A stretch of DNA of 64,000 bases, from positions 62,001-126,000 of the forward strand of contig CAMFGZ010000016.1 in assembly GCA_945952105.1 (NCBI GenBank), in the 5' to 3' direction. Below are positions 36,874 to 63,354 of this stretch, one piece after another; the first letter of the stretch is position 1; each line of letters begins with the position of its first letter. The translations under genes and the position numbers were made by a program. A model generated the notes under the pieces. It did no database searches and was not told the DNA's origin. It worked only from the letters and a program-made list of their open reading frames with translations. The DNA comes from an uncultured Rhodospirillaceae bacterium (GTDB taxonomy: Bacteria > Pseudomonadota > Alphaproteobacteria > Reyranellales > Reyranellaceae).

Positions 36874-38211
36874 ATGGAAATGACCACAGCAACTTTGCCT
36901 CGCGTCTCGGTCGTCGGTCTCGGCAAGCTCGGTGCCCCGCTGGCGGCGGTGCTCGCCAGCCGCGGCTTCTCGGTGATCGGCCTGGATGTGAACAAGACGT
37001 TCGTCGACGCGATGAACGCCGGCAAGATGCCCATCGTCGAGCCGCAGCTCAATGAGCTGATCGCCGCCAACAAGGAGCGCCTGTCGGCGACCATGGACGC
37101 CAACGAGGCGATCCAGAAGAGCGACGCCAGTTTCGTGATCGTGCCGACCCCGTCGGACAGCACCGGCTTCTTCTCCAACCGTTTCGTTCTCCAGGCCATG
37201 GAGACGCTCGGCAAGGCGCTACGCAACAAGAAGGGTTACCACATGGTCGTCATCACCTCGACGGTGATGCCGGGCACCATGGCGGCGGAGATCGCCCCCG
37301 CTCTCGAGGCCGCGTCGGGCCGCAAGATCGGGCCGGAACTCGGCCTCTGCTACAATCCGGAATTCATCGCGCTGGGCAGCGTCGTGCGCGACATGCTCTT
37401 CCCCGACTCGATCCTGGTCGGCCAGAGCGACCCCAAGGCCGGCGACATGCTTGCCACCATCTACCTGCAGATGTGCGAGAAGAAGCCGCCGGTGCAGCGC
37501 ATGAACTGGGTGAGCGCGGAGCTGACCAAGATCTCGGTCAACACCTACGTCACGACCAAGATCTCCTACGCCAACATGCTGGCCGACATCTGCGACCGCC
37601 TCCCGGGCGCAGACGTCGACGTCGTGACCAAGGCGCTGGGCGCCGACACGCGCATCGGCTCGAAGTACCTCAAGGGTGCGATGGGCTATGGCGGCCCCTG
37701 CTTCCCGCGCGACAACGTCGCGTTTGCAGCACTCGCCCGCAAGCTTGGCGCCCGCGCCGACGTGGCGGAGGCGACCGACCGCATCAACAATTTCCAGATC
37801 GAGCGCCTGTCGAACCTCGTTGCGAAGTTCGCCAAGGCCGGCACGCGCATCGCGCTGCTCGGCCTGTCCTACAAGCCGCAGACGCCCGTCGTGGAGGAAA
37901 GCCACAGCGTCAAGCTCGCCGCAAATCTCGCCGACGCGGGATATGTTGTCGTCGTGCACGACCCGTTGGCGCAGGACGCGGCCCTCGCCGTGCTCGGCGA
38001 CAAGGTGGTGGGTGCCTCCTCGCTCGAGAGCGCGGTGCGCGAATGCGACCTGCTGATCGTCGGTACCGGCTGGCCGGAATACAAGGAGATCGACCCGGCG
38101 TGGTGCAAGCGGGAGGGCCAGCGCCTCACGGTCCTGGACCTGTGGCGCACCCTGCCCGCCGAGAAGTTCGAGGCGGTTGCAGACGTGCTGTACCTCGGCT
38201 CCGGCCGCTAG
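36874..38211 (+). CDS. UDP-sugar dehydrogenase (UDP-Glc/ManNAc dehydrogenase family)
   Basis: 445 residues. The N-terminal NAD site is VSVVGLGKLGAPLAAVL (Gly15-x-Gly17-x-x-Gly20). The central domain ends in MGYGGPCFPRDN, whose Cys276 is the catalytic thiol for the two-step oxidation to a uronic acid. The C-terminal domain contains IALLGLSYKPQTPVVEESHSVKLA. The conserved Lys/Asn helix appears as LTKISVNTYVTTKISYANMLAD. Which UDP-sugar it oxidises is not clear. It opens the surface-glycan locus. ATGs at 36874 and 36880 are both possible; the upstream ribosome site is weak. Confidence 0.9.
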   Translation: MEMTTATLPRVSVVGLGKLGAPLAAVLASRGFSVIGLDVNKTFVDAMNAGKMPIVEPQLNELIAANKERLSATMDANEAIQKSDASFVIVPTPSDSTGFFSNRFVLQAMETLGKALRNKKGYHMVVITSTVMPGTMAAEIAPALEAASGRKIGPELGLCYNPEFIALGSVVRDMLFPDSILVGQSDPKAGDMLATIYLQMCEKKPPVQRMNWVSAELTKISVNTYVTTKISYANMLADICDRLPGADVDVVTKALGADTRIGSKYLKGAMGYGGPCFPRDNVAFAALARKLGARADVAEATDRINNFQIERLSNLVAKFAKAGTRIALLGLSYKPQTPVVEESHSVKLAANLADAGYVVVVHDPLAQDAALAVLGDKVVGASSLESAVRECDLLIVGTGWPEYKEIDPAWCKREGQRLTVLDLWRTLPAEKFEAVADVLYLGSGR

Positions 38212-38236: not shown

Positions 38237-38263
38237 AAAAGCCCGCGCTTTCGCGGGCTTTTT
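38237..38263 (+). terminator. Intrinsic terminator after the UDP-sugar dehydrogenase gene
   Basis: AAAAGCCCGCG / CGCGGGCTTTTT stem with a short CTTT-type loop and a T-run, starting 26 bases after the stop. It probably separates the dehydrogenase from the membrane-protein pair. Confidence 0.88.
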
Positions 38264-38309: not shown

Positions 38310-40034
38310 ATGCCGACGCCACTCTTCCCTCCCATGACCACGAAGCCGAGCTGGCAGGTGTCGGACGATACGGGCCAAGCCGGCATTGCGCTCGACGCGA
38401 TCCTGATCGGGTGCCTGTCCTTCTGCGGGCTCATCGCTCTGATCCTCTGGTACGACAACGCGCAAGGCATCACGGGGAACGGCGTCTTCAAGGCATTGCA
38501 GCTGAAGCCATGGGCGCAGACGCCGGCCACCGCGTCGCTCGACCCTTCCAACTACCTTTACTTCCCGATCGTCGGGCGCCTTTGCGCTCTACTCGATTTA
38601 GCCGGCATCTACCCGGGCGACCCGCGCCGGCAGATGACCGTCGTCCACGCCGCCAGCGCCGCAGCCTGCCTGTCGACGATGTACCTTTTCGTGCGGCATC
38701 TGACCCGCGACCGAACGATCGCCTGGCTCGCTGCCCTGTTTCATCTCGCCGGCGGCTTCTTCCTCAATCTCGCGATCAGCAACGAAGACATCATGCCGTC
38801 CTACACGCTGATGTTCGTCGCGATGGCCGTTGCCGGCATGTGGTTCACCCGGCCGAGCGTCCGGCGCGTTGTCATCGTGGCCGTGCTCTTCACGCTTGCC
38901 TGGCTGTTCGAGTGGCGGCTGATGTTTCCCACCCTGCCGGCCATGGTGCTGGCGCTCGCGCTCGCCCCCGGCCGCCCCATGGCGCGAGTCGGTTGGATTG
39001 CGACATTCCTGATGAGCTGTCTGGGCGTCGTGGCGCTCCTTCAGCTGCTGTGGGGCGGCCAGCCTGGAAATCCATACCGGTTAATCGATCTAATCTGGAC
39101 TGCGAAGGGTGTTGAGAGCGGCTGGGCGGGTTTCACCGCGGCCAAGTGGTGGTTCCTGTGGGTCGGCATCAGTGAAACACTTCTGGGAGGTCGCAATGTC
39201 GGCGAACTGGCCTCGCTGCCGCTCTACGCGCCCGAAATGACGGTGGCGGCGCTCGTCATCCTGGCGCTCGCGGCCGGCGTCCTGCTGCTTTTCTGGCGCA
39301 ACCGGCTCGCACCGCAGACCCGTATCCTGGTGGCCATCTTCGGCGGAACCTTTGCCGCCGGCGAGGTGATGAACGTCTATTCCCAGCCACAGGACCCTCA
39401 GATGCAGATCAACGTCATGCTCTGGCTGACGATCGCGGCAGCCTTGATCACGGCTCATGCCGCTCGTTCGCAGCGGCGCGCGGCGCTGCTTGCCTTCGGC
39501 TGCGTGTCGGCGGGAATCCTCGCCTACAATGTCCATGCGCTTGCCGCGACGCGCGGGGAGGACACGCTATGGCGAAACACACTCCAGCGCGTGGAGGAGC
39601 ATGTCCCTCCGGCCAAGAGCTTCCTGCTGGTGCACGGTTTCGAAAGCCTGGTTTCCCAGACCTATTATCACTGGAATGGAGACTGGAAGTTCTTCGACAC
39701 GCTCGGGCCGGCGCCCACGCCGGGCACGAAGTTCAAGGTTCTGGCTCTGGTCAGCGGCGCTGTGAACCGGCCCCGCCTGACCGGCCCCGAACTGGCCGCG
39801 GAGCTCGAACAGCAGATTTTGCAGGCAATGGCCCTCGGTTACGACGTGGTCGCCGTCGATCTCTGGAACTGGAGCCGCGACAAGATGGAATCGTCGCTTT
39901 CGACGGTCGCCGACAGAAGCAAGTCCGACGCCCTCTACGACATGCTCCACACACGATTCAACGGCACCCCCGTTTATGACGATCCGGTTGCAGGCCCGTT
40001 CGTGCGTCTGACCCCCGTCGCCGGTCCCCGGTAG
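38310..40034 (+). CDS. Large polytopic membrane protein of unrecognised family, paralogue 1 (GT-C-like architecture)
   Basis: 574 residues with roughly ten hydrophobic helices over residues ~25-430 and a soluble C-terminal domain of ~130 residues. Segments shared almost exactly with the next gene are LDPSNYLYFP, GDPRRQM, LNLAISNEDIMPSYT, LFEWRLMFPTLPA, VYSQPQDPQMQINVMLWLT and FLLVHGFESLVS. Acidic residues in the first long loop and the helix count resemble GT-C glycosyltransferases or flippases, but no definite signature is seen, so function is only suggested by the glycan context. Starts at 38310 or 38334 are possible, both with weak ribosome sites. Confidence 0.7.
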   Translation: MPTPLFPPMTTKPSWQVSDDTGQAGIALDAILIGCLSFCGLIALILWYDNAQGITGNGVFKALQLKPWAQTPATASLDPSNYLYFPIVGRLCALLDLAGIYPGDPRRQMTVVHAASAAACLSTMYLFVRHLTRDRTIAWLAALFHLAGGFFLNLAISNEDIMPSYTLMFVAMAVAGMWFTRPSVRRVVIVAVLFTLAWLFEWRLMFPTLPAMVLALALAPGRPMARVGWIATFLMSCLGVVALLQLLWGGQPGNPYRLIDLIWTAKGVESGWAGFTAAKWWFLWVGISETLLGGRNVGELASLPLYAPEMTVAALVILALAAGVLLLFWRNRLAPQTRILVAIFGGTFAAGEVMNVYSQPQDPQMQINVMLWLTIAAALITAHAARSQRRAALLAFGCVSAGILAYNVHALAATRGEDTLWRNTLQRVEEHVPPAKSFLLVHGFESLVSQTYYHWNGDWKFFDTLGPAPTPGTKFKVLALVSGAVNRPRLTGPELAAELEQQILQAMALGYDVVAVDLWNWSRDKMESSLSTVADRSKSDALYDMLHTRFNGTPVYDDPVAGPFVRLTPVAGPR

Positions 40035-40097
40035 CATTTTACGCACCGGCCACCGCCCTTGGCACTTCCGCCCACGCTGTGGCAGAAACCCTAAATC

Positions 40098-41810
40098 TTG
40101 GGGAAACAGACACTTACGCGAATCGACGGCCGGCCGGGCACCGTGCCTGCCTGGTGGTACGACAGGCCAGCTCTCGTCGACCTGGCCATCCTCTTTCTCG
40201 CCTCTCTGGCAGGCCTGGTCTGGCTAGTCGGCTGGCTGGACAATCCGCAGGCTCTGACCAGCAACGGCGTCTTCAAGGCGATGACGGTCCGCGACTGGCT
40301 GGCCGACTACGTCAAGACGCCTCTCGACCCCTCCAATTTCCACTACTACCCGTTCGTCGCCTTCCTCTGTCATCTGCTCGACCTGACCGGCGTCCAGACC
40401 GGCGATCCGCGCCGGCAGATCGCGCTCATCAACTGTCTCTTCGGCGCCTTAAGCCTCTGCATCGTCTACCTGATGGTGCGCGCCGTCACAGGCCGCCGCG
40501 ACGTGGCGTGGGCCGCGGCAGCCTTCCACCTGGGCGGCGCCTTCTTCCTCAACCTGTCGATCAGCAACGAAGACATCATCCCGTCCTACACGTTCCTCCT
40601 CGGCTCGATGGCCCTCGCCGCCGTATGGTTCGTCAATCCGACTCCCACACGCATCGCCATCGTCGCCGTCGTATTCGCCCTCTCCTGGCTGTTCGAATGG
40701 CGTCTGATGTTTCCAACGCTGCCGGCCCTGCTGGTGGCCGTCACACTGGCGCCCGCTCCGATCTGGAAGAGGTGCCTGCGCGTCGTGGTCTTCCTGGCCG
40801 CCATGGTCGGCACCGCGGAGATCGCGATGCAGCTCTGGGGGCCGCACAACGGCAACGTCGGCACCGTGCGGGACCTCCTCTGGACAGGAAAGGCGGTCGA
40901 GTCAGGTTGGGCGGGCTTCGCCAGCCGCAAGCTCGTTTTCCTCTGGGTCGGCATCACCGAATATCTTCTCGGAGGCAAGAACCTGGGCGATCTCGCGTAT
41001 CTCAGCGCCCTCAGGACGGAAATCCTCGTTGCGACCGTTTTCATCGCTCTTGTCGCGATCGGATGGCTGACCCTGCTCCGGAGAGACGTCGGCTCACTGA
41101 ATGCGCGCGTCCTGGCAGCAGTCTTCGGCGTGAACTTCCTGGCCGGCGAATTCTTCAATGCTTACTCGCAGCCGCAGGACCCGCAAATGCAGATCAACGT
41201 GATGATCTGGCTGACGGTGGCCTGGGCGGCCATCGTCGCGGCTGCCACCCGCAGATACGGCCCGGCCGTGCCTCGTATCGCCATCGTGCTGGCCGCCGCC
41301 CTGGTGTCCTACAACATCTACAGGATGGCCCCCGCCCGGGGGGCCGATGGACAGTGGCGGGCCGCCTTGTCCAATGTCGAACGACACGCCGATCCCGCGC
41401 GCACGGTCTTTCTGGTGCACGGATTTGAACCGTTCGTCTCTGAGACCTTCTATGAGTGGCGCGGCGATTGGAATTACTTTCCCAAGCTGGGCCCCGCTCC
41501 ATCGCCCAAGCCGAAGATCAAGCTCCTCGCCTTCGTGAACGGTCCGATCCATCAGCCAGGCGCAAGCGGCGAGGAGCTCGCCGCCGAACTCAGCCGCCAA
41601 ATCGGCCATGCCATGGATCTCGGCTACGAAGTCGTCGCGGACTATGTGTGGGAGCTTTCGGAGGCGAATTTCACCTCGTACTTGGCGACGGTCGCCGACT
41701 CGTCGAAGGCCTCGACGATCTACAGGACGCTGCACGTGAAGTTCATCGGGACGCCGTTTTTCGTCGACCCGGTCGCCGGCGCCTTCTTTCGCCTAAGACG
41801 TGCGGATTGA
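40098..41810 (+). CDS. Large polytopic membrane protein, paralogue 2 (GT-C-like architecture)
   Basis: 570 residues, a tandem duplicate of the preceding gene with the same helix layout and C-terminal domain. Matching segments are LDPSNFHYYP, GDPRRQI, LNLSISNEDIIPSYT, LFEWRLMFPTLPALL, YSQPQDPQMQINVMIWLT and FLVHGFEPFVSE. No ATG precedes the first helix in frame. TTG at 40098 gives the best N-terminus (MGKQTLTRID), and GTG at 40143 is the alternative. The overall 63-base gap suggests cotranscription with paralogue 1. Function is unknown; an envelope polysaccharide role is inferred from the neighbours. Confidence 0.68.
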   Translation: MGKQTLTRIDGRPGTVPAWWYDRPALVDLAILFLASLAGLVWLVGWLDNPQALTSNGVFKAMTVRDWLADYVKTPLDPSNFHYYPFVAFLCHLLDLTGVQTGDPRRQIALINCLFGALSLCIVYLMVRAVTGRRDVAWAAAAFHLGGAFFLNLSISNEDIIPSYTFLLGSMALAAVWFVNPTPTRIAIVAVVFALSWLFEWRLMFPTLPALLVAVTLAPAPIWKRCLRVVVFLAAMVGTAEIAMQLWGPHNGNVGTVRDLLWTGKAVESGWAGFASRKLVFLWVGITEYLLGGKNLGDLAYLSALRTEILVATVFIALVAIGWLTLLRRDVGSLNARVLAAVFGVNFLAGEFFNAYSQPQDPQMQINVMIWLTVAWAAIVAAATRRYGPAVPRIAIVLAAALVSYNIYRMAPARGADGQWRAALSNVERHADPARTVFLVHGFEPFVSETFYEWRGDWNYFPKLGPAPSPKPKIKLLAFVNGPIHQPGASGEELAAELSRQIGHAMDLGYEVVADYVWELSEANFTSYLATVADSSKASTIYRTLHVKFIGTPFFVDPVAGAFFRLRRAD

Positions 41811-41879: not shown

Positions 41880-42908
41880 ATGAGCACTGCGTTCGCCGCT
41901 TACCTTGCCGGAAGCCTTTCCTCGGAACGTTTCACCTTCATCGATATCGGCTGTTCCGGCGGAATCGATCCCGCCTGGCGCATCTTCGGCGACCGGCTGC
42001 GGTCGCTCGCATTCGACGCCAGCCTCGACGAGTGCGAGCGGCTGACCAGGGAAGAGACACATCCCGATGTCAGATACATGGGCGGATTCGTCGGCCTGAG
42101 TGCGGACCATCCTTTCACACGTGCAGCGGCGGGAAAGCCGCCGCAGGTCCGCAATCCCTTCGCGCGAACCAGCGCCGCGCGGGCGTATCACCTGAAAAAA
42201 GAACGGATGGCCACGGCCACGCTCAAGGAGAAGCTCCACGTCAACGCCTGGAATCTGACGAAGCTCGGCGACCCCACGAAGCCGATCATCGTCCCGGATG
42301 TTCTCGCGAGTCTCGGCTGGACCGACATCGACCTTCTCAAGATTGACATCGATGGCCCGGACTTCCACGTCCTGCATTCCTTCGATGACAAGTTCGACAG
42401 GTTGAACGTCCTAGCCGCCCGCGTTGAGGTGAATCTGTGCGGGGGCACGGACCCGACCGAGCACACATTCCACAATACCGACCGCTTCATGCGCGACCGC
42501 GGCTTCGAACTGCTCGCGCTCGATGTGCGCAATTATTCGATGGCCGCACTCCCCTCGCCTTTCGCCATCACCTCGCCAGCGCAAACGCTGACGGGACGGC
42601 CATTCCAGGCCGAAGCCTTCTATGCGCGCGATCCGGCCGGTCCGGACTGGCGGCACATGGCCGACACAATTGGCGCGGAGAAGCTGGGCAAGCTGGCGGC
42701 CATTTTCTCGGTTTGGGGCCAGCCAGATGCTGCCGCCGAACTCCTGACGCTGTTCCGCGACAGGCTCGCCACCGTCATCGATGTCGATCTCGGCCTCGAA
42801 CTGCTCGCCGGCCAAGCCCAGCTTGGCCGCGACAAAGCCGACAACTACACCAGCTACATTGCCGCGTTCGAGGCCGACGCCCCGTCCTTCTATCCGCCGC
42901 CGAACTAG
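41880..42908 (+). CDS. FkbM-type SAM methyltransferase-like protein, paralogue B
   Basis: 342 residues, a close paralogue of 33684-34769: FTFIDIGCSGGIDPAWRIFGDRL, DIDLLKIDIDGPDFHVLHSFDDK, HTFHNTDRFMRDRGFELLALDVRNYSM and the same C-terminal helical extension (EKLGKLAAIFSVWGQPDAAAELL). The shared core fits an FkbM-like methyl transfer to a sugar hydroxyl. It follows the membrane-protein pair by 69 bases on the same strand. It ends convergently with the putative glycosyltransferase gene, overlapping it by four bases. Confidence 0.75.
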   Translation: MSTAFAAYLAGSLSSERFTFIDIGCSGGIDPAWRIFGDRLRSLAFDASLDECERLTREETHPDVRYMGGFVGLSADHPFTRAAAGKPPQVRNPFARTSAARAYHLKKERMATATLKEKLHVNAWNLTKLGDPTKPIIVPDVLASLGWTDIDLLKIDIDGPDFHVLHSFDDKFDRLNVLAARVEVNLCGGTDPTEHTFHNTDRFMRDRGFELLALDVRNYSMAALPSPFAITSPAQTLTGRPFQAEAFYARDPAGPDWRHMADTIGAEKLGKLAAIFSVWGQPDAAAELLTLFRDRLATVIDVDLGLELLAGQAQLGRDKADNYTSYIAAFEADAPSFYPPPN

Positions 42909-44482
42909 AGAGCGCGGCGTCCGCGGAAGCGCAGGACCTTGCCGCGAAGGCTGGGATCGATACGCGGCAGCCCGGCGAGGACCTGGCTGCAGAAGGGATT
43001 GATGTTGGCACCGACATAGTCGGTGAAGAGCGGCCAGAACTTGTTGTAGATCACGTTCACGCCGACGAAGCGGCGCGGCGTCCGGCGATTGGGCGGTCGC
43101 GTTTCGGCCTCCGATGCGGCCGCCTGCTTGAACAGACGAGATATGACCTTGAGACGCTTGGTATCGACTGGCCCGGCGTGCCGGCCCGCCCGGACGGGCT
43201 CGTCGGCTCGCTGGGTCGCCAGGCCGAACTCGAAGACGAACATGTCCGTCTTCGGCAGAAGCGTTTCGAAACTGTCCCGCTCGACGCCGTCCAGGTCCGT
43301 CGGAAGGCCCTCGCACTCCGTCGGGATGAGGATCTTGCCGGTGAAACCCATCGCCTTCCACGCGACGGCGAACCGGCTCACGAACTCGGCACGCGCCGCA
43401 ACGAGCATCACCGACGTCGAACGCGGAAAAGTCAGCATCTGATCGCACACGAACGGCAGAGTATGCGGAATGTCATAGGTGAGATCGTCGTAGAGATGCC
43501 ATTCGAGGCTGGTCGACGAGTAGGAAACCTCGGCGGGTTTGATGGCCGCGTCCAACCCGGCGGTGAAACGCTGATAGGACGTCTCCCGATCGAGCCTGAT
43601 CTCCTCGATCTCCACATCGGGCCAGCCCCAGTTCTCGGCCTGGGAGGCGATGTAGGGAGTCGCCACGTCCCAGATATACTGGTCCTGGTTGTTCATGCGG
43701 GTCTGGCGGCCCTTGTTGTTGGCCGCCGCGACGCGGGTGTGGTCGCAGTGATAGCCGAATACCTTGTCGATCAGCGTGTCGACGCGGCCACGATAGAGGG
43801 CAAGGCGCGCCGCCAGGTTGGAATCGCAGTGCCACCCCAGAAGCATCGACTCGTCGAAGCCATGGATCTCGAACATGTCCTCGCGCAGCGCCGCCTGGAA
43901 ATCGCCCAGCGCGTCGTACTTCATCGGCATGAAGTTATGGACGACCTGGTTCAGGTGGTAGCGAACCGACCAGTCGCGCAGCTTGGCGAGATTGCCCGCC
44001 GGATCGCGACGGTCGAAGGCCGCCTCCCAGAGCATCTCCGGCAGCTCGAATCGCGGGATCTGGTAGAAGCCGTCGGGAACGCCGCCCAGGATATCGCTGA
44101 GCGATTCACTCTCGACACGCGGCACCAGCAGCATGTCGGTGTTGGTATAGAGGATCCAACGGTTCTTCGGATTCGACCGCCGGAGCGCCACGTTGCGCGA
44201 CTGCGATTCCAGCGCGACCAGATGGGTCTTCGACTTCAGATGGGCGTGCTGCTCGGGGCGAATCCTGAGAATCCGCATCACCTTCTTGGTCTTTTCCGTC
44301 AGCGTGTCGTGGATCGCCTCGGGAAAGGTCGGATGATCGTCCGGCGTGTTGTAGTCGACGAACAGGATCTCGTCGTCCGGATCCGACATGACCTCGGAAA
44401 TCGCGTTGAAACTGATCGCGGCGCGCTTGTGGAGATTGTAGCCGTGGGTGTCGTTGCGGCCGTAGAGGATGACGGAAAACAT
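42905..44482 (-). CDS. Putative glycosyltransferase of GT-A type, two-part protein
   Basis: 525 residues. The N-terminus FSVILYGRNDTHGYNLHKRAAISFNAIS and an acidic site at WILYTNTDMLLV (Asn114-Thr-Asp116, DxD-like) suggest a nucleotide-sugar-binding GT-A fold; a GFDESMLLGWHCDSNLA segment resembles acceptor-side loops. The second half (residues ~330-525, TSVMLVAARAEFVSRFAVAWKAMGFTGKILIPTE) looks like a separate alpha-beta domain that I do not recognise. The N-terminal GRND pattern recurs in the protein at 50032-51468. It ends at the FkbM paralogue B gene and starts 40 bases after the TPR gene, so the two may be cotranscribed. Confidence 0.6.
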   Translation of the reverse strand: MFSVILYGRNDTHGYNLHKRAAISFNAISEVMSDPDDEILFVDYNTPDDHPTFPEAIHDTLTEKTKKVMRILRIRPEQHAHLKSKTHLVALESQSRNVALRRSNPKNRWILYTNTDMLLVPRVESESLSDILGGVPDGFYQIPRFELPEMLWEAAFDRRDPAGNLAKLRDWSVRYHLNQVVHNFMPMKYDALGDFQAALREDMFEIHGFDESMLLGWHCDSNLAARLALYRGRVDTLIDKVFGYHCDHTRVAAANNKGRQTRMNNQDQYIWDVATPYIASQAENWGWPDVEIEEIRLDRETSYQRFTAGLDAAIKPAEVSYSSTSLEWHLYDDLTYDIPHTLPFVCDQMLTFPRSTSVMLVAARAEFVSRFAVAWKAMGFTGKILIPTECEGLPTDLDGVERDSFETLLPKTDMFVFEFGLATQRADEPVRAGRHAGPVDTKRLKVISRLFKQAAASEAETRPPNRRTPRRFVGVNVIYNKFWPLFTDYVGANINPFCSQVLAGLPRIDPSLRGKVLRFRGRRAL

Positions 44483-46032: not shown

Positions 46033-47070
46033 ATGACGAAAAGAGCGTTTCTGACAGGCGCCTCCGGCCAGGCTGGCTCATATTTGGCTGAATTTCTACT
46101 GGCGAAAGGATATGATGTTCACGCGATCGTGAGGCGAAGCTCGGTTTTCACCTCCCATCGTATCGATCACATCCTAAATCACCCTAATTTTCATACGTAT
46201 TTGGGGGATCTGACTGATTCCAGCAACCTGCACCGGCTGCTGGGCCGTATCGAACCCGAAGAAATCTACAACCACGCGGCCCAGTCTCACGTTGCTGTCT
46301 CCTTCGAGGTGCCGGAGTACACGGCCGAGGTCGACGCGATCGGCTGCCTGCGCCTGCTGGATGCGATCAAGGATCTCGGCATGAAGCCGCGCTTCTACCA
46401 GGCCTCGACCTCCGAACTGTTCGGGGGCGAGATCGGCACCCAGCCGCAGAGCGAGCAGACGAAGTTCCATCCCCGCTCCCCTTACGCCGCCGCGAAGCTC
46501 TACTCCTACTGGGTCACGACCAACTACCGGGAAGCCTACGGCCTGTTCGCCTGCAACGGCATCCTCTTCAATCACGAGTCTCCCCGCCTTGGCGAAACCT
46601 TCGTCACCAAGAAGATTACCAAGGCCGCCGCCCGTATCGCACAGGGCCGCCAGAAGCAGCTCGTGCTCGGCAACCTCGAGGCCAAGCGCGACTGGGGCTA
46701 CGCAAAGGATTATGTCGAGGCGATGTGGCTGATGCTGCAGCAAGAGGTGCCCGACGACTATGTCATCGCCACCGGCGAGGTCCATTCTGTGCGGGACTTC
46801 GTCACCATGGCGTTCGGCGTCACCGGCATCGAGTTGGAGTGGCGCGGTGAGGGCGCTTCCGAGCAGGCACTTGATGCCCGCACCGGCGAAGTCAGGGTCG
46901 TCGTCGACCCCAAATATTATCGTCCCGCCGAAGTCGACTATCTGCAGGGCGATGCCTCCAAGGCGCGCCGCATCCTGGGCTGGGAGCCGAAGACTAGCCT
47001 CCAGGACCTGGTCCGGTTGATGGTCGAGTACGACCTGAAGCATGATGGCTACAGCGGTGAGCACGGATGA
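46033..47070 (+). CDS. gmd: GDP-mannose 4,6-dehydratase (or GDP-heptose 4,6-dehydratase homologue)
   Basis: 345 residues of the extended SDR GMD family. The NADP loop is [16 protein letters not shown], and the catalytic residues are Thr126 and Glu128 in ASTSELFGG and Tyr151/Lys155 in [12 protein letters not shown]. The family signature [18 protein letters not shown] and the [14 protein letters not shown] segment are present. It converts GDP-mannose to GDP-4-keto-6-deoxymannose; homologues such as DmhA act on GDP-heptose. It heads a five-gene plus-strand cassette and overlaps the next gene by four bases (ATGA). Confidence 0.92.
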
Positions 47071-47987
47071 TCCTCGTGCTCGGCGCAACCGGCTTTCTCG
47101 GCAAGCGCGTCATCCGCCAACTCGAAGCCCGGAAGCGCGGCTTCACCGCAACGTCCCTCTCGGCCGGCGTCGACCTTCGCGACCGCGCGCAAACGCTGGC
47201 ACTCTTCGAAGAGGTCAAGCCGGCCCACGTCCTTAACTGCTCGGCCTATGTCGGCGGGATCCAGTTCGGCCTTAAGCATCAGGCGGAGATGTTCCGCAAC
47301 AACCTCCTGATGACTATCAACCTTCTCGAGGCCGCCACGACTGCGAAGGTCAGACGCGTGGTCAATCCGATCTCGAACTGCGCCTATCCCGGCGAAGCGA
47401 CCCTCTTCAGAGAGGACGAATTCTGGGACGGGCCACTGCACGACTCGGTGATGACCTACGGCTTCGTCCGCAAGGCGTCCTGGGTCGGTTCATGGGCCTA
47501 TGCCCACCAATACGGCCTCGACGTCGTAAACCTCATCCTGTCCAACATGTACGGGCCCGAGGATCACTTCGAGGCCGAGCGCTCGCACGCTCTGGGCGCC
47601 CTGATCATGAAGTTCGCCGATGCGAAGGCGACAGGCGCGCCGGAGGTCGTCGTCTGGGGATCTGGCAAACCGGTGCGCGAGTGGCTACACGTCGATGACG
47701 GTGCCGAGGCGATGATCCGGGCGATCGACGCGCCGGCCACGACCGACATCGTCAATATTGGCGTCGGCAAGGGCATATCGATCCTTGAGCTCGCCGAAAC
47801 GATCGCCGATGCCGTTGGCTACAAGGGCAGGATCGTACTGGACCCCTCCAAGCCCGATGGCGCCCCATTCAAGACCGTCGATGGCTCGAACGGGGCCCGC
47901 CTGCTGGGCTGGAGCCCGACGCGCGGGCTACGACAGGGAATCAAGGACACCGTCGCCTGGTATGTCGGGCAAGGAGCTGCGCAATGA
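47067..47987 (+). CDS. GDP-L-fucose synthase-like NAD(P)-dependent epimerase/reductase
   Basis: 306 residues of the extended SDR family with the GDP-fucose synthase layout. The cofactor loop is [12 protein letters not shown], and [12 protein letters not shown] supplies the catalytic Ser103 and Cys105. The Tyr motif is [11 protein letters not shown], where Tyr131 is followed at +4 by Arg135 and at +5 by Lys136 instead of the usual Yxxx[11 protein letters not shown] corresponds to the substrate His region. It probably acts on the GDP-4-keto-6-deoxy sugar made by the gene before it. Both ends overlap neighbours by four bases. Confidence 0.82.
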
Positions 47988-48391
47988 GCATCGTCGAGAT
48001 CAAGGAAGGTGACCTGGTGCTCGCGCGCCACATCCCCGCCGATGCAGCCTGGAATGGCGGCCTCAAGTTCTTCTCTCACGACGGTGATTTCATCCAGGTC
48101 GGCACCTGGGGCTATCCCTCTGGCACGCTGCTGAAGGCACACATCCACAACGAAGTGCCGCGTCAGGTCTTCTGGACCCAGGAAGTGCTGTACGTCCGCA
48201 AAGGGGCGATCAAAGCTTCCGTCTACAACACCGAGGAGAAGAAGGTCGCCGAGCTGGTCATCAGCACCGGCGACGTCGCCATCCTGCTGCGCGGCGGACA
48301 CGGCTACGAGATCCTCGAGGACGGCACCGAGGTCCTCGAAGTGAAGAACGGCCCTTATGTCGGTGCGGACAGGGACCGCAGGCGGTTGTGA
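47984..48391 (+). CDS. Cupin-fold protein
   Basis: 135 residues forming a single beta-barrel cupin: GTLLKAHIHNEVPRQVFWTQEVLYVRKGAIKASVYN carries the HxH...Q/E motif 1, and GDVAILLRGGHGYEILEDGTEVLEVKNGPY carries the motif 2 His. Metal binding is therefore likely. In nucleotide-sugar cassettes such proteins are often sugar isomerases or binding partners, but this one is not close to a named family I can identify. It overlaps its neighbours on both sides (ATGA and GTGA), so translation is coupled. Confidence 0.75.
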   Translation: MSIVEIKEGDLVLARHIPADAAWNGGLKFFSHDGDFIQVGTWGYPSGTLLKAHIHNEVPRQVFWTQEVLYVRKGAIKASVYNTEEKKVAELVISTGDVAILLRGGHGYEILEDGTEVLEVKNGPYVGADRDRRRL

Positions 48392-48954
48392 GCGGAAATA
48401 TCTTCTTCGATGAGGCGTCGCTGGCCCATCGCGGCAAGAACGTCATCATCGGCAAGACGGTCCGCATCCGCTATCCCGAGCTCGTCCGGCTGGGCGACAA
48501 CGTCATCATCGACGACTTCACCTACATCTCGACCGCCCTGGAGTGCGCCGACTACGTCCACATCTCCGCCGGCGCCAAGCTGATCGGCGGGCGGCAGGCC
48601 ACGGTTCGCTTCGGACAGTTCTCGACCCTGGCGCCGAACGTCGTGATGGCGGCCGGCAGCGACGACTACGTCGCCGGCATCGCGACGCCGCTGGTACCTC
48701 GCCATGTCAAAGGCGCGGTCGAGGTTGGCGACATCACCCTGGGACGACACTGCATCGTCGGCGCCAATTCGACCGTTCTGCCCAACGTCACGTTCGGCGA
48801 CGGTGCCTGTCTCGGCGCACAGTCGCTGGCGAAGAAGAATCTCGAGGCCTGGACGCTTTACGCCGGTGTGCCGGCGCGCAAGCTGCGCGACCGCGACGAG
48901 AACGCAATCCTCGCCCTCGAAGAACAGTTCTGGAAGGAAGTCGGGAATGGTTGA
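48388..48954 (+). CDS. Left-handed beta-helix (hexapeptide) acyltransferase
   Basis: 188 residues starting at a GTG that overlaps the cupin stop. Hexapeptide repeats run through residues ~17-150 (for example VIIGKTVRI, VRLGDNVIIDDFTYI, VEVGDITLGRHCIVGANSTVLPNVTFGDGACLGAQSLA). It ends with the typical LYAGVPARKLRDR exit helix. It probably O- or N-acetylates the sugar made by the cassette; with an aminotransferase next to it, N-acetylation of an amino sugar is attractive. It overlaps the aminotransferase gene by eight bases. Confidence 0.88.
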   Translation: MSGNIFFDEASLAHRGKNVIIGKTVRIRYPELVRLGDNVIIDDFTYISTALECADYVHISAGAKLIGGRQATVRFGQFSTLAPNVVMAAGSDDYVAGIATPLVPRHVKGAVEVGDITLGRHCIVGANSTVLPNVTFGDGACLGAQSLAKKNLEAWTLYAGVPARKLRDRDENAILALEEQFWKEVGNG

Positions 48955-50056
48955 CCATTTCATAATGCAGATGCGCCCGCTCTTCGGCAAGGAAGAGAAG
49001 AAGGCGATCTGCGACTACATGGATGAAGACGGCTTCATCACCGAGTTCAAGCGGACAGCGCAGTTCGAGCGGATGATCGCCGACTATACCGGCGCGAAGC
49101 ATTGCATCGTCGTCAACAACGGCACGATCAGCCTGACGCTCGCGGCCATGGCGGTGGGAGTCGTCGCCGGCGACGAGGTCATCGTCCCCAACTACACGAT
49201 GATCGCCAGCCCGAACGCAGTGAAGATGTTCGGCGCCGTCCCGGTATTCGTCGACGTCGAGCCGGGCACGCTGTGCCTCGACATCGAATTGGTGAAGAAG
49301 GCGGTCACGCCGAAGACCAAGGCGATCATGCTGGTGTCGGCGAACGGCCGGCCGCCCTCGTCCGGCATCGCCGCCTTCGAGGCGCTGGCCAAGGAAAAGG
49401 GCATCGAGCTGATCGAGGACGCCGCGCAGTCGCTCGGCTCCTACTTCGCTGACGGCCGCCATGTCGGCCGCGCCGGCAGGGTCGGCAGCTTCTCCTTCTC
49501 CTCACCCAAGATCGTGTCCACCGGCCAGGGCGGCGCCCTGATCACCGACGACGACGAGATCGCCCACCGCCTGCGCCGCCTCAAGGACTTCGGTCGCTCG
49601 GGCGGCGGTAACGACATCCACGACTCCATCGGCTTCAACTTCAAGTTCACGGAGCTGCAGGCCTGCATCGGCATCGAGCAGATGCGCAAGGTACCGGCCC
49701 GCGTGATCCGAAAGAAGGAGATATGGAAGCGCTACCAGAAGAAGCTCGCCGGCATCCCCGGCGTCTCGCTCTTCCCGCACGACCTCGCACTGACGGCGCC
49801 CTGGTTCATCGACGTCCGTGTCGAGCGACGCGAGGGGCTGATCGACTACCTGAAGCAGCGCAACGTCGGCACGCGCGTGATGTATCCCCCGATCACACGA
49901 CAGGTCGCCTACAACCTCCCCGGAGACTATCCGGTGTCGGAGGATATCGGCCGACGCGGCCTCTGGTTGCCCTCCGCGGTCCAGTTGTCGGACGAGGAGA
50001 TCGACCACGTCTGTGACGCGATCCGCGACTTCTACGAGGGTCCGAAGAACCGCTGA
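48947..50056 (+). CDS. DegT/DnrJ/EryC1-family PLP aminotransferase (sugar aminotransferase)
   Basis: 369 residues of the PLP-dependent sugar aminotransferase family. Cofactor-site segments are NNGTISLTLA, LIEDAAQSLGSYF (Asp158) and SFSFSSPKIVSTGQGGALIT, whose Lys188 should carry PLP. It aminates a keto-sugar, possibly C4 of GDP-4-keto-6-deoxymannose to give a perosamine-like sugar, since gmd heads the cassette. The ATG at 48947 lies within the acyltransferase 3' end. Its own end overlaps the convergent glycosyltransferase-like gene by 25 bases. Confidence 0.9.
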   Translation: MVDHFIMQMRPLFGKEEKKAICDYMDEDGFITEFKRTAQFERMIADYTGAKHCIVVNNGTISLTLAAMAVGVVAGDEVIVPNYTMIASPNAVKMFGAVPVFVDVEPGTLCLDIELVKKAVTPKTKAIMLVSANGRPPSSGIAAFEALAKEKGIELIEDAAQSLGSYFADGRHVGRAGRVGSFSFSSPKIVSTGQGGALITDDDEIAHRLRRLKDFGRSGGGNDIHDSIGFNFKFTELQACIGIEQMRKVPARVIRKKEIWKRYQKKLAGIPGVSLFPHDLALTAPWFIDVRVERREGLIDYLKQRNVGTRVMYPPITRQVAYNLPGDYPVSEDIGRRGLWLPSAVQLSDEEIDHVCDAIRDFYEGPKNR

Positions 50057-51468
50057 AGCCGGTACTTCACGCGGCCGTAGAGCCCGCGGGAGATCTCCTT
50101 CCGCGGTGAGGGCCGGAAGCGGCCGAACAGCCGCGCCTCGCGAATCTTCAGTCGGACCGGCGGCCCGTTGCCGCGGAACCGGCCGAACCGCACCGCCTTG
50201 CTTTCGGGCGGCATCTCCAGCCAGATCCCAACGGGCTCCTTGCCGGCGCTGACAAGGGTCGGCGGGCGGTGGGTCTGGTCGACCGCCTCGACGACGAGAT
50301 CGCCCTGGAGGACGTCGAGCGACAGGAAGATCCAGCGCCGCTCCGAAGTCTTCGGCGGCAGCAGCTTGTCGGGCAGGCTGAGCGCCGCGACGTTGTCCAC
50401 GACGCCTTTGGCGCCTTCTATGACGCCCGACTCGTCCCGGCTCGCGATCGGCGCGACCCAGATCCAGTCGAGTGGCAGCTTCCCGATCTCACTGGCGCCC
50501 TCGGCCGGCTCCTGGTCGTTCCGCCCGGCATGCAGCACCACCAGGCCGGCCCGCACCTTCTCCGCCCGAGCCGACGCTTCTCTGTCGAGTGCCGGCGCCG
50601 GTGCGTTCGCGGTGCCCACGCCGACATGCCAGATGCGGTCGCCGTCCCTCTTCCACGCAAAGCCGCCCAGGCCCCATTCGTCGGGATTGAGGTAAGGCAG
50701 GCCGACCTCGGTCACGTAGGACTGGCTGTCATAGGCGCCGCTGGCATTCACGTAGGACTGCGTATGGCTGATGTGGAAGATGCGACCCAGCAGTTCGCAA
50801 TCCATCCCGGCATCCATGCAGGTCCAGCACAGGCGCGAGTCGAGATGCAGCTTCGAGAAGTCGATGGCCTCGTCGAAGCCGCGCAGGCCGGTCATGGTCG
50901 CCCGGTCCATCATCAGGAAGTCGCCGGACGCATTGGTGTAGGGCGGCCGATCGTAGGGCGACTCCGAGCAGGTGTCGACGGACACGATATTGGCCGGGTC
51001 CTCGATCTCGGCGGGTGTCGCCGAGGTGAAGTCGATGTCGGCACGGATGTTGACGCGCTCCGCGCGGTAGAGCCGGTTCGCGACCAGCCCTGCGCGAGCG
51101 ATGCGATCCGCCAGGGCACGACCGAAGAAACAGTCGCCGCCCGTGACGATCTGGTAGTCCGCCTCGCTCGTCCTCACCGCCGCGTTGATCGCGGGGTTGA
51201 GCATGATCGGCATCGGCCCCCGGCAGATCGCCTTGTGGACTTCCGGCGCCACGACCACGCAGCGCACATAGGGGAAGCGATCGACCAGAATCGGCGCCAG
51301 CAGCGGCCGGTTTGCCGGCGGATTCCATTCGACGAAGGCGACGCGGAACTCGTAGCCGTCGCGCGTCAGCATCGCGCGATTGTAGGAAATGGCGGCGAGC
51401 AGCTTCTCCGTCCATTGCGGCTCGTAGTCGTCGTTGCGGCCGAGGATGATCGCCTCGATGACGGTCAT
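50032..51468 (-). CDS. Putative GT-A glycosyltransferase-like protein
   Basis: 478 residues. The N-terminus MTVIEAIILGRNDDYEPQWTEKLLAAISYN is related to that of 42905-44482. YQIVTGGDCFFGRAL, SGDFLMMDRATMTGLRGFDEAIDFSKLHLDSRLCW and an acceptor-like acidic cluster suggest a GT2-type fold. The C-terminal ~200 residues are a separate beta-rich domain (WIFLSLDVLQGDLVVEAVD, RFGRFRGNGPPVRLKIREARLFGRF). It is the last gene of the long minus-strand operon, 12 bases after the methyltransferase gene. The glycosyl-transfer role is inferred, and the sugar is unknown. Confidence 0.58.
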   Translation of the reverse strand: MTVIEAIILGRNDDYEPQWTEKLLAAISYNRAMLTRDGYEFRVAFVEWNPPANRPLLAPILVDRFPYVRCVVVAPEVHKAICRGPMPIMLNPAINAAVRTSEADYQIVTGGDCFFGRALADRIARAGLVANRLYRAERVNIRADIDFTSATPAEIEDPANIVSVDTCSESPYDRPPYTNASGDFLMMDRATMTGLRGFDEAIDFSKLHLDSRLCWTCMDAGMDCELLGRIFHISHTQSYVNASGAYDSQSYVTEVGLPYLNPDEWGLGGFAWKRDGDRIWHVGVGTANAPAPALDREASARAEKVRAGLVVLHAGRNDQEPAEGASEIGKLPLDWIWVAPIASRDESGVIEGAKGVVDNVAALSLPDKLLPPKTSERRWIFLSLDVLQGDLVVEAVDQTHRPPTLVSAGKEPVGIWLEMPPESKAVRFGRFRGNGPPVRLKIREARLFGRFRPSPRKEISRGLYGRVKYRLQRFFGPS

Positions 51469-51480
51469 GGGAAGCCTCTG

Positions 51481-52599
51481 CTACTTCGTCAGCAGATAGT
51501 AGGCTGTGTTGCCCGAGGCGAAGAGCGTGGAGAATTCCGGCGGCAGGCTCTCGATCTCGGCATCGCTCACGACGTCCCGGGGCGAGAAGCTCTTTACCTT
51601 GAAGCCGACATGGGAAAAGATGCGCTCGAGCATGCTGCGGCTCGGCATCAGCGCGAACTCGCCGTCGAAGCAGCATTTGTATTTCGACGAATCGGCGAGC
51701 ACCATGATCGCCTCGTCGCTGTCGACGATGTGCGAATGAACGACCGCCCCTTCCTTCACCAGGTTGAACAGCGCCTGCGCGCCGCCGACCGGATCGAGCA
51801 GGTGATAGAAGAGCCCGGAACAAAAACCGATGTCGAACGGCTCTGGCGACTTGAAGCCGTGCAGGCCGCTCAACTCGAAGCGAATGTCGCGAACCGCCTT
51901 GACGTCCGAACATTGCTGAAGGAACCGGGCCTGCTCGATCGACGGTGCGTCGATGTCGACCCCGACCATCCGCCCGCCCTGCTGCGCCATCTCCATCGTG
52001 TGGAAACCCGACGCGCATGCCACGTCGACGATCCTCTTGCCGCTTATGTCGCCGAAGCCCGTCTTGAGAAGATGGAACATGATCTTCTGGTTGAGCCGGT
52101 GCATCGGCATGATGCCGTCGATCGTCGCCTCGACCCTGGCGCCCCCTCCGAGGTCGTAGGAATAGTGCCAGTAGTCCCAGGTGCCGGCCTTGAGACGGCG
52201 AAACTCCGCAGCGTCGCCAGTGTACAGGAGAGCGACCGCATGCACGGCACCAAGCGCCCGGCTCCCGTCGGCGGCCGCATTTCGAACCATCAGGACAGGG
52301 CGCCCCGCAGGCTTTTCCAGAAGAACGCGCACCTTCCCCCGAAAGGGAGCGGCGAGCGTGACCTTGCCACCGCACTCGCCATGGCTCTTCAGGTCCATGC
52401 ACTCGACGCGAACGATGCCCGACTTGATCTCGACATCTGCTTCCACGACCTTCGGCAACTTCTGCCAAAATCCCGAAAGCGGCAGCGCGAACCCATAGTC
52501 CCATTGCTTCGAGGCAATCTCGAATTCCAGGGCGTTCCCCGTTGCATTCGCACGAGTGTCCTTGAACACCTCGAAGCTCGACAGGCTGACTTCACGCAT
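51481..52599 (-). CDS. SAM-dependent methyltransferase with a beta-rich N-terminal domain
   Basis: 372 residues. The C-terminal half is a class I methyltransferase: RIVDVACASGFHTMEMAQQGGRMVGVDIDAPSIEQARF (motif I and acidic strand) and FDIGFCSGLFYHLLDPVGGAQALFNLVKEGA. The first ~150 residues contain no known motif but look beta-rich (VEADVEIKSGIVRVECMDLKSHGECGGKVTLAAPFRGKVRVLLE), possibly a carbohydrate-binding domain. It is in the long minus-strand run, followed by the glycosyltransferase-like gene. Target sugar unknown. Confidence 0.82.
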   Translation of the reverse strand: MREVSLSSFEVFKDTRANATGNALEFEIASKQWDYGFALPLSGFWQKLPKVVEADVEIKSGIVRVECMDLKSHGECGGKVTLAAPFRGKVRVLLEKPAGRPVLMVRNAAADGSRALGAVHAVALLYTGDAAEFRRLKAGTWDYWHYSYDLGGGARVEATIDGIMPMHRLNQKIMFHLLKTGFGDISGKRIVDVACASGFHTMEMAQQGGRMVGVDIDAPSIEQARFLQQCSDVKAVRDIRFELSGLHGFKSPEPFDIGFCSGLFYHLLDPVGGAQALFNLVKEGAVVHSHIVDSDEAIMVLADSSKYKCCFDGEFALMPSRSMLERIFSHVGFKVKSFSPRDVVSDAEIESLPPEFSTLFASGNTAYYLLTK

Positions 52600-52630
52600 T
52601 TTTCACTAACACTTTCCGTTATGCTGGCCT

Positions 52631-53407
52631 TTAACCCACCTTGCGGAAATAGCCCCCGGGCGTCGAAGTGAAGGGAAACTTCTTCAACTGAGGCCTGTTG
52701 GCGCCGAAATAGTCGTCGAAAGCCGCGCTCTCGCCCGGAAATCCATCCATGCCGTACTCGTCGAGCAAGACGATGCCGCCCGGTGAGACGAGCGGGTAGA
52801 GATGACGAAGCGCCGCCAGGGTCGGATCGTAAAGATCCATATCCAGATGCAGGAGCGAAATCCGGATACCGGGATTTGCTTTCACGTATTCCGGAATGCT
52901 GACCGAGGCGTCTCCCTTGACGAGTTCGACCCGCTTCACCCGCGGCACCATCGAATCGCGCTGGGTAATCTCGACGAGCTTCTGCAAGGTGGGCAGGAAA
53001 TCGCTGGAGTTCCAACCGCCGACGACCTTCCCCCTCTTCTCGTTCGGAAGGCCATCCTTCTCCGCGAGATTGACGAATCCCTCAAACGTATCGAACCCGA
53101 TCACCCTCTTGAGCGAGTCGGCGGGGCAAAGCACTTCGATCAACTTGACGAACGTCAACAAGGACATGCCCTTGAAAACACCGCATTCGACGATGTGCCC
53201 GGGGATATCCATCACCTCATTGAATATCTGCACATGTGAGAGAAACTTCCCGAAGTTCACCCGGCGCAGAAACAGCATGAAGTTCTCGATGACATCTTCC
53301 TGGCCGATGCCACCCTCCGTGATCACCTTGACGGTGTCCTCCCAGATCTTGGCGTCGAAACCGGTGCTCGCGCCCATGCGAGTCGGATCAGCCTTAAAAT
53401 CGGTCAT
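52631..53407 (-). CDS. TylF/MycF-family sugar O-methyltransferase
   Basis: 258 residues of the macrocin-O-methyltransferase family. Landmarks are VECGVFKGMSLLTFVKL (SAM motif I), VIGFDTFEGF, LKRVIGFDTFEGFVNLAEK, and LLHLDMDLYDPTLAALRHLYPLVSPGGIVLLDEYG, where acidic residues bind the catalytic divalent metal in TylF enzymes. Such enzymes methylate sugar hydroxyls. It overlaps the oxygenase gene at its 5' end by four bases. Confidence 0.88.
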   Translation of the reverse strand: MTDFKADPTRMGASTGFDAKIWEDTVKVITEGGIGQEDVIENFMLFLRRVNFGKFLSHVQIFNEVMDIPGHIVECGVFKGMSLLTFVKLIEVLCPADSLKRVIGFDTFEGFVNLAEKDGLPNEKRGKVVGGWNSSDFLPTLQKLVEITQRDSMVPRVKRVELVKGDASVSIPEYVKANPGIRISLLHLDMDLYDPTLAALRHLYPLVSPGGIVLLDEYGMDGFPGESAAFDDYFGANRPQLKKFPFTSTPGGYFRKVG

Positions 53408-54222
53408 TGCACGTATTCCGGGTAAGAAGAGCTGAACGAATCATTGAGATAGAGTCCTTCCGGATAGTTCCGCTCGATGCTCTCCGATGCGAGGACATCG
53501 TCGAAGCGGAGCTGCAGATTGAGCCGTGGCCGATCGGTGGTATTCAACTCGCTTCGGTGCACCAGAAGCGTGCTGAACAACAAGGCCTGCCCGGCCTTGA
53601 CGCTCGCCGATTCGAACTGATGACGGGCTGCGATCTCATCCGCGTTGGCTATGCTGAAGGATTTGGCCCCGCTCCCAGGTGATTTCTCCTCACGGACGGG
53701 CAGAACACCCCACTTGTGACTTCCCTTGATCCAGGAAGGCGGTCCTTGACGCAAGTCGGTATCGAACAGTGGCAACCAAAGCGTCACCCCGTTCAAGCTA
53801 CCCTGGATGTACGGAAAGTCCTGGTGGATCGGCAGCAAGAACCGCTCCTCCTCCGGCAGGTCTATGCGCACGTTGACGAAAGTGCAGCAAGAAACGAGGT
53901 TGGTCCCCATTACGGACTGAGCAAGCCCGACAAACCAGGGATGGCAAGCCAACTGACGTGCCGCAGGAAAGCGACGCGAAATCTTGTAGAGCTTGCCTAC
54001 GGCCCTCCGATCCAGTTTGGCCAGCCGCACGATCGCATCCGGAAAATCCTCGGTTTCCCCGACCGCGCGCGAAACGGACGCGACCCATTCGCTCATTTCA
54101 CGGATCATCTTTCGGCGCAGCTCATCAACGTCGGATGGCAGGTCGACAAGACAGATACCATCCCGTTCGTAATCTGAAAGTTGCCCTTCCAGGAGCCCAC
54201 CCTCATTACCGCCGAAGTTCAT
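53404..54222 (-). CDS. Phytanoyl-CoA dioxygenase-family (Fe(II)/2-oxoglutarate) oxygenase
   Basis: 272 residues of the PhyH superfamily. The 2-His-1-carboxylate site is His133 and Asp135 (LLPIHQDFPYIQG) with His222 (TLLVHRSELN); the following RPRLNLQLRF can supply the 2-oxoglutarate-binding Arg. The enzyme would hydroxylate or otherwise oxidise a substrate made in this locus, perhaps a sugar or lipid group. It is placed between two methyltransferase genes; a 103-base gap to the next gene upstream breaks the otherwise tight spacing. Confidence 0.87.
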   Translation of the reverse strand: MNFGGNEGGLLEGQLSDYERDGICLVDLPSDVDELRRKMIREMSEWVASVSRAVGETEDFPDAIVRLAKLDRRAVGKLYKISRRFPAARQLACHPWFVGLAQSVMGTNLVSCCTFVNVRIDLPEEERFLLPIHQDFPYIQGSLNGVTLWLPLFDTDLRQGPPSWIKGSHKWGVLPVREEKSPGSGAKSFSIANADEIAARHQFESASVKAGQALLFSTLLVHRSELNTTDRPRLNLQLRFDDVLASESIERNYPEGLYLNDSFSSSYPEYVQ

Positions 54223-54325
54223 AAGTATCCTCCGACTTCAGGAGTGAGGTCACCACAAGTTGGATGGATCGACAAGCAAACCCTTTCCTGGCTTCCCATT
54301 GCCATCAACTCGCGGCGATGCCTGC

Positions 54326-55156
54326 TTAAGAGGCTGCCTTTGCGCCGGTAAATGCACGTTCCCGATTACGCGGATGATCAACCTTCACGACCCCGGACCT
54401 GACCCGAAGATTGTCCTTTCCATTGTCGGTGAAAAGAACCGGGCTCAGTTGGTGGGTTACGCAGAAGGAGAAGAAAGCGTTCGACCAGTCGATGTCGTCG
54501 ACCACGACTGTCGCCCCAGCGCCCAATCGAGGCCACGCCGCGTCGAGTTCGGCCGTCAGGAAGTCCATCGAATGGTCGCTGTCATGCAGGTAGAGATCGA
54601 ACGTCTCCCGCCGCGTTGGTATCACTTCGAGGCTGTTGCCCTCGACGAAATCCCAATGCTGCTTGAGATAATCCGGAATTATGAAGCCTGGCTTGAGCGT
54701 GGACTGGTAAAGTTCGGAGTCGCCAACCAGCGGATGGCGCAGCGCCGTGCCGGCAGACACGCCCGCGCGGATCGCCGAATCCGGCAGGTCAATCGACACG
54801 AGGCGCCCCTTCCCGTTGCGATGAAGGCCCGCGAGCAGGAATGACGTATTGCCACCGTAGTAGACCCCGGTTTCAAGAACCGCTTCCGGCTTGAGGTGAC
54901 GGACCAACACATAGATCAGGATGCGCTCGAAGGCGAACCAGTCGGCCGAGTCGATCTTATCGCGCGCGAAGATGGCTTTGGTGAAGCCGTATTCCTCTCG
55001 CACCTTCGTCAGCCTCGCATTGATGCCGGCCAGAAACTGCCCGTCTTCCAGAATCTCGTCGTAGTAGCCACGCAGGATATCCGGCCCTACCGCCAGGTAG
55101 TCGGCGAGCCGGTCGAGGTTCCAGAGGTTGCACTTGCGGGTGTCGATGATGTCCAT
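54326..55156 (-). CDS. Class I SAM methyltransferase (CmcI/Methyltransf_24-like)
   Basis: 276 residues. SAM motif I is AVLETGVYYGGNTSFLLAGL, followed by RLVSIDLPDSAIRAG and FDLYLHDSDHSMDFLTAELDAAWPRLGAGATVVVDDIDW, whose acidic residues resemble the metal-binding acidic residues of TylF and CmcI enzymes. It likely O-methylates a sugar in the same pathway as its neighbours. It starts three bases before the split-transketolase C-half gene ends, so the two are tightly linked. Confidence 0.83.
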   Translation of the reverse strand: MDIIDTRKCNLWNLDRLADYLAVGPDILRGYYDEILEDGQFLAGINARLTKVREEYGFTKAIFARDKIDSADWFAFERILIYVLVRHLKPEAVLETGVYYGGNTSFLLAGLHRNGKGRLVSIDLPDSAIRAGVSAGTALRHPLVGDSELYQSTLKPGFIIPDYLKQHWDFVEGNSLEVIPTRRETFDLYLHDSDHSMDFLTAELDAAWPRLGAGATVVVDDIDWSNAFFSFCVTHQLSPVLFTDNGKDNLRVRSGVVKVDHPRNRERAFTGAKAAS

Positions 55157-55159
55157 GTC

Positions 55160-56868: not shown

Positions 56869-56872
56869 CGAA

Positions 56873-57760: not shown

Positions 57761-57774
57761 TTTCAATCCACGCT

Positions 57775-59744: not shown

Positions 59745-59751
59745 GTTTCAC

Positions 59752-60705: not shown

Positions 60706-60707
60706 CG

Positions 60708-61679: not shown

Positions 61680-61710
61680 CGTCGTGACGAGCCGCGGCGG
61701 CCGCCACGAT

Positions 61711-63199: not shown

Positions 63200-63354
63200 A
63201 AAGAACGAACCTCCCCTGCCGCCAGCGTGCCGTACTCCCGATGGAGCCGGATGCTTGCAATCGACAGCTTGCAAAACCAAGCTGGCCTGCCTCAATCGAG
63301 GCTGACAACTGGACCATGCGCCGGGGTTACGTCAACCCTCGGCAGGAATTGCCG

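Follow-up and report, generated by a model that had tools for sequence, protein, structure and literature searches.

The window, by which we mean the whole stretch of 64,000 nucleotides that was analysed (contig 16, positions 62001-126000, of a 5.46 Mb genome), carries two neighboring genes encoding membrane proteins, named A and B here. The features at this locus are as follows.

36874..38211, + strand: UDP-glucose/GDP-mannose dehydrogenase-family gene, upstream of A (PF03721, 2.7e-46)
38334..40034, + strand: protein A, predicted GT-C-fold membrane protein, 566 aa (alternative ATG at 38310)
38478..38480, + strand: codon of A Asn49, the equivalent of B Asn56 by alignment
38775..38807, + strand: A motif ISNEDIMPSYT, whose ED pair corresponds to B E158/D159
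39378..39419, + strand: A motif YSQPQDPQMQINVM, start of a late transmembrane helix (by alignment)
40098..41810, + strand: protein B, predicted GT-C-fold membrane protein, 570 aa, TTG start
40263..40265, + strand: codon of B Asn56, predicted tip of helix JM1 (H56-69), Asn in 72/72 (DSSP and column counts)
40560..40592, + strand: B motif ISNEDIIPSYT, residues 155-165, with E158 and D159 invariant in 79/79 aligned members
41163..41204, + strand: B motif YSQPQDPQMQINVM, residues 356-369, with D361 invariant in 80/80
41385..41807, + strand: B C-terminal alpha/beta domain, residues 430-570, at the dome position of GT-C enzymes in the model
41880..42908, + strand: FkbM-domain methyltransferase gene, downstream of B (PF05050, 1.3e-5, above the gathering score)
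42905..44482, - strand: 525 aa protein without family assignment (cluster 42), recurring beside members of clade I (described below)

Both open reading frames were found on the + strand, as expected from the sequence-only reading, which had described two adjacent proteins of ~570 residues. BLASTP aligned A and B over 540 aa with 0 gaps (49% identity, 64% positives, 513 bits), a similarity far above chance. The motifs ISNEDI[MI]PSYT and YSQPQDPQMQINVM occupied matching positions in the two proteins, and a C-terminal region of ~130 aa was common to them, in agreement with that reading. For the TTG start of B, conservation from residue 1 was seen in two other genomes. The closest named relatives with an A-B pair were Reyranella, and B of R. 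aquatilis KCTC 52223 was 84% identical; the genome is thus very probably that of a Reyranella species (Alphaproteobacteria). Between Reyranella species, dN and dS were 0.11 and 0.82 for A, and 0.10 and 0.81 for B; the dN/dS of ~0.13 for each gene indicates that both are maintained under purifying selection.

The flanking genes are the UDP-sugar dehydrogenase gene and the FkbM-type gene that had been recognized from the sequence. A perfect GC-rich hairpin followed by a T run (AAAAGCCCGCG-CTTT-CGCGGGCTTTTT, 38237-38263) is located between the dehydrogenase gene and A. It is terminator-like, and A and B may thus be transcribed separately from the dehydrogenase gene. The pattern scan did not list this hairpin, probably because the T run pairs with an A run. 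Two proteins without a Pfam match, encoded at 42905-44482 (-) and 50032-51468 (-), show distant homology to one another (E 1e-6, with 22% identity over 295 aa). A nucleotide-sugar/glycan cluster extends from 46033 to 63295 and includes GDP-mannose 4,6-dehydratase, epimerases, a CmcI-type O-methyltransferase, a C-methyltransferase, a GHMP kinase, and a split transketolase at 55163-56913. A and B are at the edge of this nucleotide-sugar and glycan gene region. A tblastn search with two family-associated GT2s found no GT2 for A and B within the 64 kb window, and no GtrA gene lay alongside them there; other GT2 genes and four GtrA-domain genes are present elsewhere in the same genome.

The best Pfam matches for A and B had E-values of 0.02 and 0.36, both under the cut-off. 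There was no NCBIfam match at cut-off and no PHROGs match for either protein, and phmmer and profile searches of PDB chains gave no sequence-level match below E 0.6. Assignment to a known family by profile was rejected, since no Pfam, NCBIfam, or PHROGs match reached its curated cut-off; the earlier impression of an unrecognized family was thus borne out.

Protein B was modeled with AlphaFold2 using 80 family sequences (pLDDT 91.5, pTM 0.91). In the Foldseek search against the PDB, all 19 matches at E<=0.001 were GT-C-fold glycosyltransferases or complexes containing one, with moderate TM-scores of 0.40-0.56 (by query) and a probability of 1.00. The matches for B included DPY19 (1.5e-6) and ArnT (9.8e-6), as well as OST, PglB, and AftB. 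When B was compared by VIA, the Z scores were 24.9 for ALG12 (427 residues aligned, 6.2 A), 24.5 for yeast OST (433, 4.6 A), 23.8 for ArnT (436, 6.0 A), 22.7 for Pmt1-Pmt2 (361, 3.9 A), and 18.4 for AftB; the top rows were partly tied, and no single GT-C subfamily was picked out. On the model, GT-C is the clear best fold for B, and the resemblance to GT-C transferases suspected from the sequence is supported. The predicted helices of B (H23-47, H56-69, H83-97, H104-131, and further ones) place two helices, JM1 and JM2, between TM1 and TM2, as in the GT-CA core.

A relation was visible at the profile level as well. HHalign of the family against 45 alphaproteobacterial PMT/PMT_2 proteins gave a probability of 94.7% and an E-value of 5.7e-8 over JM2-TM5, indicating that the two groups are related by sequence profile as well as by fold. 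The PMT_2 and PMT Pfam profiles did not match A or B at the gathering score, and 4 of 30 members matched the PMT_2 profile weakly (best 6e-4). GT-C enzymes carry a periplasmic or luminal dome at the place of the C-terminal domain (PMC10154233), and the GT-C alignments of the whole B model in VIA extended through this domain. Modeled alone, the domain reached a pLDDT of 94, and a search for it as a separate known domain gave no confident match (lowest Foldseek E-value 0.033, highest VIA Z 4.3).

Multi-helix membrane proteins encoded near sugar-nucleotide genes might also be transporters, flippases, or Wzy-type polymerases, and Foldseek did return MFS chains further down its ranking (E >=0.066). 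However, the MFS rows had TM-scores of ~0.10-0.16 and Foldseek probabilities <=0.23, far from the values of the GT-C rows. The sequence-only reading had named a clear match to an established transporter or polymerase family as what would refute it; in the profile searches, no transporter, flippase, or polymerase profile matched at cut-off. We consider such a function highly improbable, and a transporter or polymerase identity was rejected on the fold scores.

In GT-CA enzymes, an Asp at the tip of JM1 has been stated to be catalytically essential throughout (PMC12041299). It takes the same position in PimE, ALG6, ArnT, and PglB (PMC12041525), and was present in every sugar transferase returned by the homology search of a TMTC study (PMC7801869). 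In DPY19, replacing the equivalent acid, Glu71, with Gln abolishes activity (PMC10154233). In the present family, the predicted JM1 tip is Asn56 in all 72 aligned rows instead of Asp, a placement that comes from predicted secondary structure and a weak profile alignment. Two weak alignments disagree on the residue facing the DE motif of PMT, one giving S55-N56 and the other D48. Among residues 46-80, none of the acids was conserved family-wide (D48 in 47/71, D70 in 67/79, and D77 in 40/79). Position 48 was occupied by Asp in 47 rows (A and B among them) and by Gln in 23, which are clade III rows. As judged from the aligned sequences, both alignments leave the family without a generally conserved acid ahead of JM2, and A and B themselves might use D48.

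Unlike the JM1-tip Asp, a second acid typical of GT-CA enzymes was found. D159 is invariant and falls on the Asp that PMT_2 proteins have between TM3 and TM4, at the position of ArnT D158, for which a sugar contact has been reported (PMC7801869). Other invariant or near-invariant residues, in B numbering, were N56, G57, K60, W67, N80, D95, H144, E158, and Y164, followed further along by E200-W201-R202, W262, T263, K265, and QPQDPQMQxNxMxW. With no conserved Asp at the JM1 tip, the residues that probably serve in catalysis are E158/D159, D361, or, in members that have it, such as A and B, D48. We tentatively suggest that these are lineage-specific GT-C-fold enzymes in which the "essential" GT-CA carboxylate has become an invariant Asn, and in which catalysis could have moved to E158/D159 or D361, or the chemistry or acceptor could have changed; we would not give this proposal even chances.

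The invariant Asn at the predicted JM1 tip, together with a first periplasmic loop that has no conserved acid before JM2, would also suit a non-catalytic GT-C-fold protein, a subunit or chaperone whose role is to bind lipid-linked sugars or glycans. PIG-U plays such a part in the GPI transamidase; it is homologous to GT-C proteins but has no enzyme activity (PMC7801869), and VIA listed PIG-U chains among the structural matches (7wld_U, Z 15.8). However, PIG-U aligned over only ~280 residues, compared with ~436 for ArnT, and the many invariant polar residues (E158, D159, E200, R202, K265, and QPQDPQMQ) are those expected of an active site. The match of D159 to the donor-site Asp of ArnT/PMT_2 and the operon that clade III shares with a donor synthase also speak against this explanation. 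We regard a non-catalytic role as unlikely and favor an active transferase.

A family-wide search found at least one copy in 61 of 65 Reyranella genomes. Elsewhere in the same taxonomic family, one genome of another genus gave a strong match (E 5e-193) and another a marginal one (E 9e-4). Outside Reyranella, none of the 385 class-level and 398 phylum-level genomes contained a member, with up to three candidates scored per genome, so that a very distant relative could be missed. A wide distribution was rejected, as the class- and phylum-level searches matched only Reyranella; the homologue search thus places the family almost entirely within this genus. Plasmids and phages gave no family match by tblastn, and viral fold matches were weak (best E 2.9e-3), on which a mobile or phage origin was rejected.

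The tree contained three clades, I (10 rows, comprising A, B, and their relatives), II (37 rows), and III (33 rows). The present genome has four family copies, namely A, B, and two on contig 2, with one copy each in clades II and III. These two clades are common across the genus, and clade I was found in a minority of loci. A and B represent two subclades of one arm of the tree. A grouped with L039 and L040 with a modest support of 81, and B grouped with L036, L037, L041, and L042 with a support of 96; in these other strains, each of the six is the lone family gene of a comparable locus. As the A and B subclades are older than the species sampled, the pair consists of two old paralogues. The earlier description of a tandem duplicate therefore holds in that the two genes are adjacent homologues, but a recent duplication was rejected by the tree. 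A decayed family copy with several stops was observed in another Reyranella genome (G011:C4:214193-215624).

In clade III, the genes are arranged as GT2, SAM methyltransferase, often a cupin gene, and then the GT-C gene, and in some loci the gene ends overlap. According to tblastn, the GT2 was upstream in all 30 clade III loci with enough upstream DNA, and was 79-95% identical to its counterpart in the present genome. The result of a simple gene call, in which 6 of 26 clade III genes had no GT2, was rejected, as tblastn found the GT2 in all. This GT2 matched the PgfS (1.3e-64) and ArnC (3.4e-50) models below their cut-offs, and by sequence it is of the polyprenyl-phosphate-sugar synthase type (PgfS/ArnC-like). 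A second GT2, 41% identical to that of clade III, lies next to a SAM methyltransferase on contig 1 of the present genome (L200, 7695-10003), where the GT2-methyltransferase pairing recurs without an adjacent GT-C gene.

Among relatives close to B, the loci L036, L037, and L041 have GtrA and a second ArnC/PgfS-like GT2 adjoining, downstream on the opposite strand (the L041 GtrA matched PF04138 at 3.3e-19). Only at these three B-like loci did GtrA accompany family genes. The dehydrogenase gene is a conserved neighbor of clade I members, and the FkbM-domain gene of several of them. At L039, an H-NS-like gene (PF00816, 9215-9547) and a methyltransferase gene were observed beside the single clade I GT-C gene. 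Clade II loci had neither GT2 nor GtrA of these kinds alongside; the genes next to the clade II members encode a dehydrogenase, an SDR, and a set of ABC sugar-transport proteins, and nothing there pointed to a partner. On contig 15 of the present genome (L201, 6128-9936), a GT2, a small SMR/EamA-like protein, and a GT-C-like protein of 527 aa form a typical three-component layout. The 527 aa protein does not belong to the present family; its first loop contains NHD, and it had no Pfam match at E<=0.01.

PgfS is a glycosyltransferase of streptococcal protein glycosylation. The PgfS-like GT2 of clade III raises the reading that the family members are active GT-C transferases with protein acceptors, either PMT-/OST-like or performing DPY19-like C-mannosylation, instead of acting on surface polysaccharide or lipid. 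The best fold matches were mostly protein glycosyltransferases (DPY19, OST, PglB, and PMT), and the clade II and III copies are mostly outside polysaccharide gene clusters. However, the fold is silent on the acceptor, as ArnT (lipid A) and ALG12 (lipid-linked glycan) scored as high, and the position of A and B beside nucleotide-sugar and glycan genes argues against a restriction to proteins. We consider protein acceptors a minority possibility, and because they are a sub-case of the broader transferase reading, the two probabilities overlap.

GT-C enzymes build much of the cell exterior. Taken as a whole, A and B are likely members of an unclassified GT-C-fold family, and most likely periplasmic transferases of polyprenyl-phosphate sugars. 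Homology, fold, near-restriction to the genus, and gene context are computed results; enzyme activity, donor type, and membrane side are what we infer for A and B. Both would sit in the inner membrane and have a core like that of GT-CA enzymes; the first periplasmic loop would contain the two juxtamembrane helices, and the C-terminal alpha/beta domain would also be periplasmic. An ArnC/PgfS-like GT2 enzyme would produce the donor in the cytoplasm, and a small flippase would bring it across the membrane. At the periplasmic face, A and B would then accept the sugar from its polyprenyl-phosphate carrier and pass it on to a glycan, lipid, or protein of the cell surface. Genomic context supports such a donor for clade III and the three B-like genes only.

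Since the profile tests failed and the JM1-tip Asp was not found, the family was not filed under any named family. The novelty is in the family itself and in the Asn at the place expected to be catalytic, with a function that we infer. The rule of one JM1-tip Asp in GT-C enzymes was derived from a limited number of structures. More than a hundred proteins with Asn at the tip that still have the GT-C fold, the second acid, and, for one clade, the operon with a donor synthase would put this rule to a natural test. The analysis also offers a likely function for genes that are present in nearly every Reyranella genome and unnamed by the family libraries searched.

Among known systems, PIG-U resembles this family in that it has the GT-C fold but seems to lack a catalytic carboxylate where one is normally found. 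The family differs from PIG-U in occurring in bacteria, in its partners, and in retaining the second acid together with many invariant polar residues. With PMT/PMT_2 (PF02366, PF13231), the family shares the remote homology over JM2-TM5, but it lacks the DE/DD motif often seen among the PMT_2 proteins sampled. In Gtr-type periplasmic glycosylation, three components cooperate, the GT2 GtrB, the flippase GtrA, and a GT-C transferase, and a pentofuranose version uses GT136 (PMC11127046). The coupling of a donor synthase gene to the GT-C gene in clade III, and the GtrA and GT2 beside three B-like genes, are similar to this arrangement. However, A and B have no adjoining GT2 or flippase, and the clade III operon shows no GtrA and adds a methyltransferase and a cupin. 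ArnT differs in lacking a sequence-level match to the family and in its JM1-tip D55/E56 (PMC7801869), against S/G/A55-N56 here if the weak alignment is right, and the family has the late motif QPQDPQMQ instead. The likenesses to ArnT are a GT-C fold over nearly the full length, an Asp between TM3 and TM4, and the pairing of other family members, not A and B, with an ArnC-like GT2. By analogy, the family probably works like the ArnT/Gtr enzymes.
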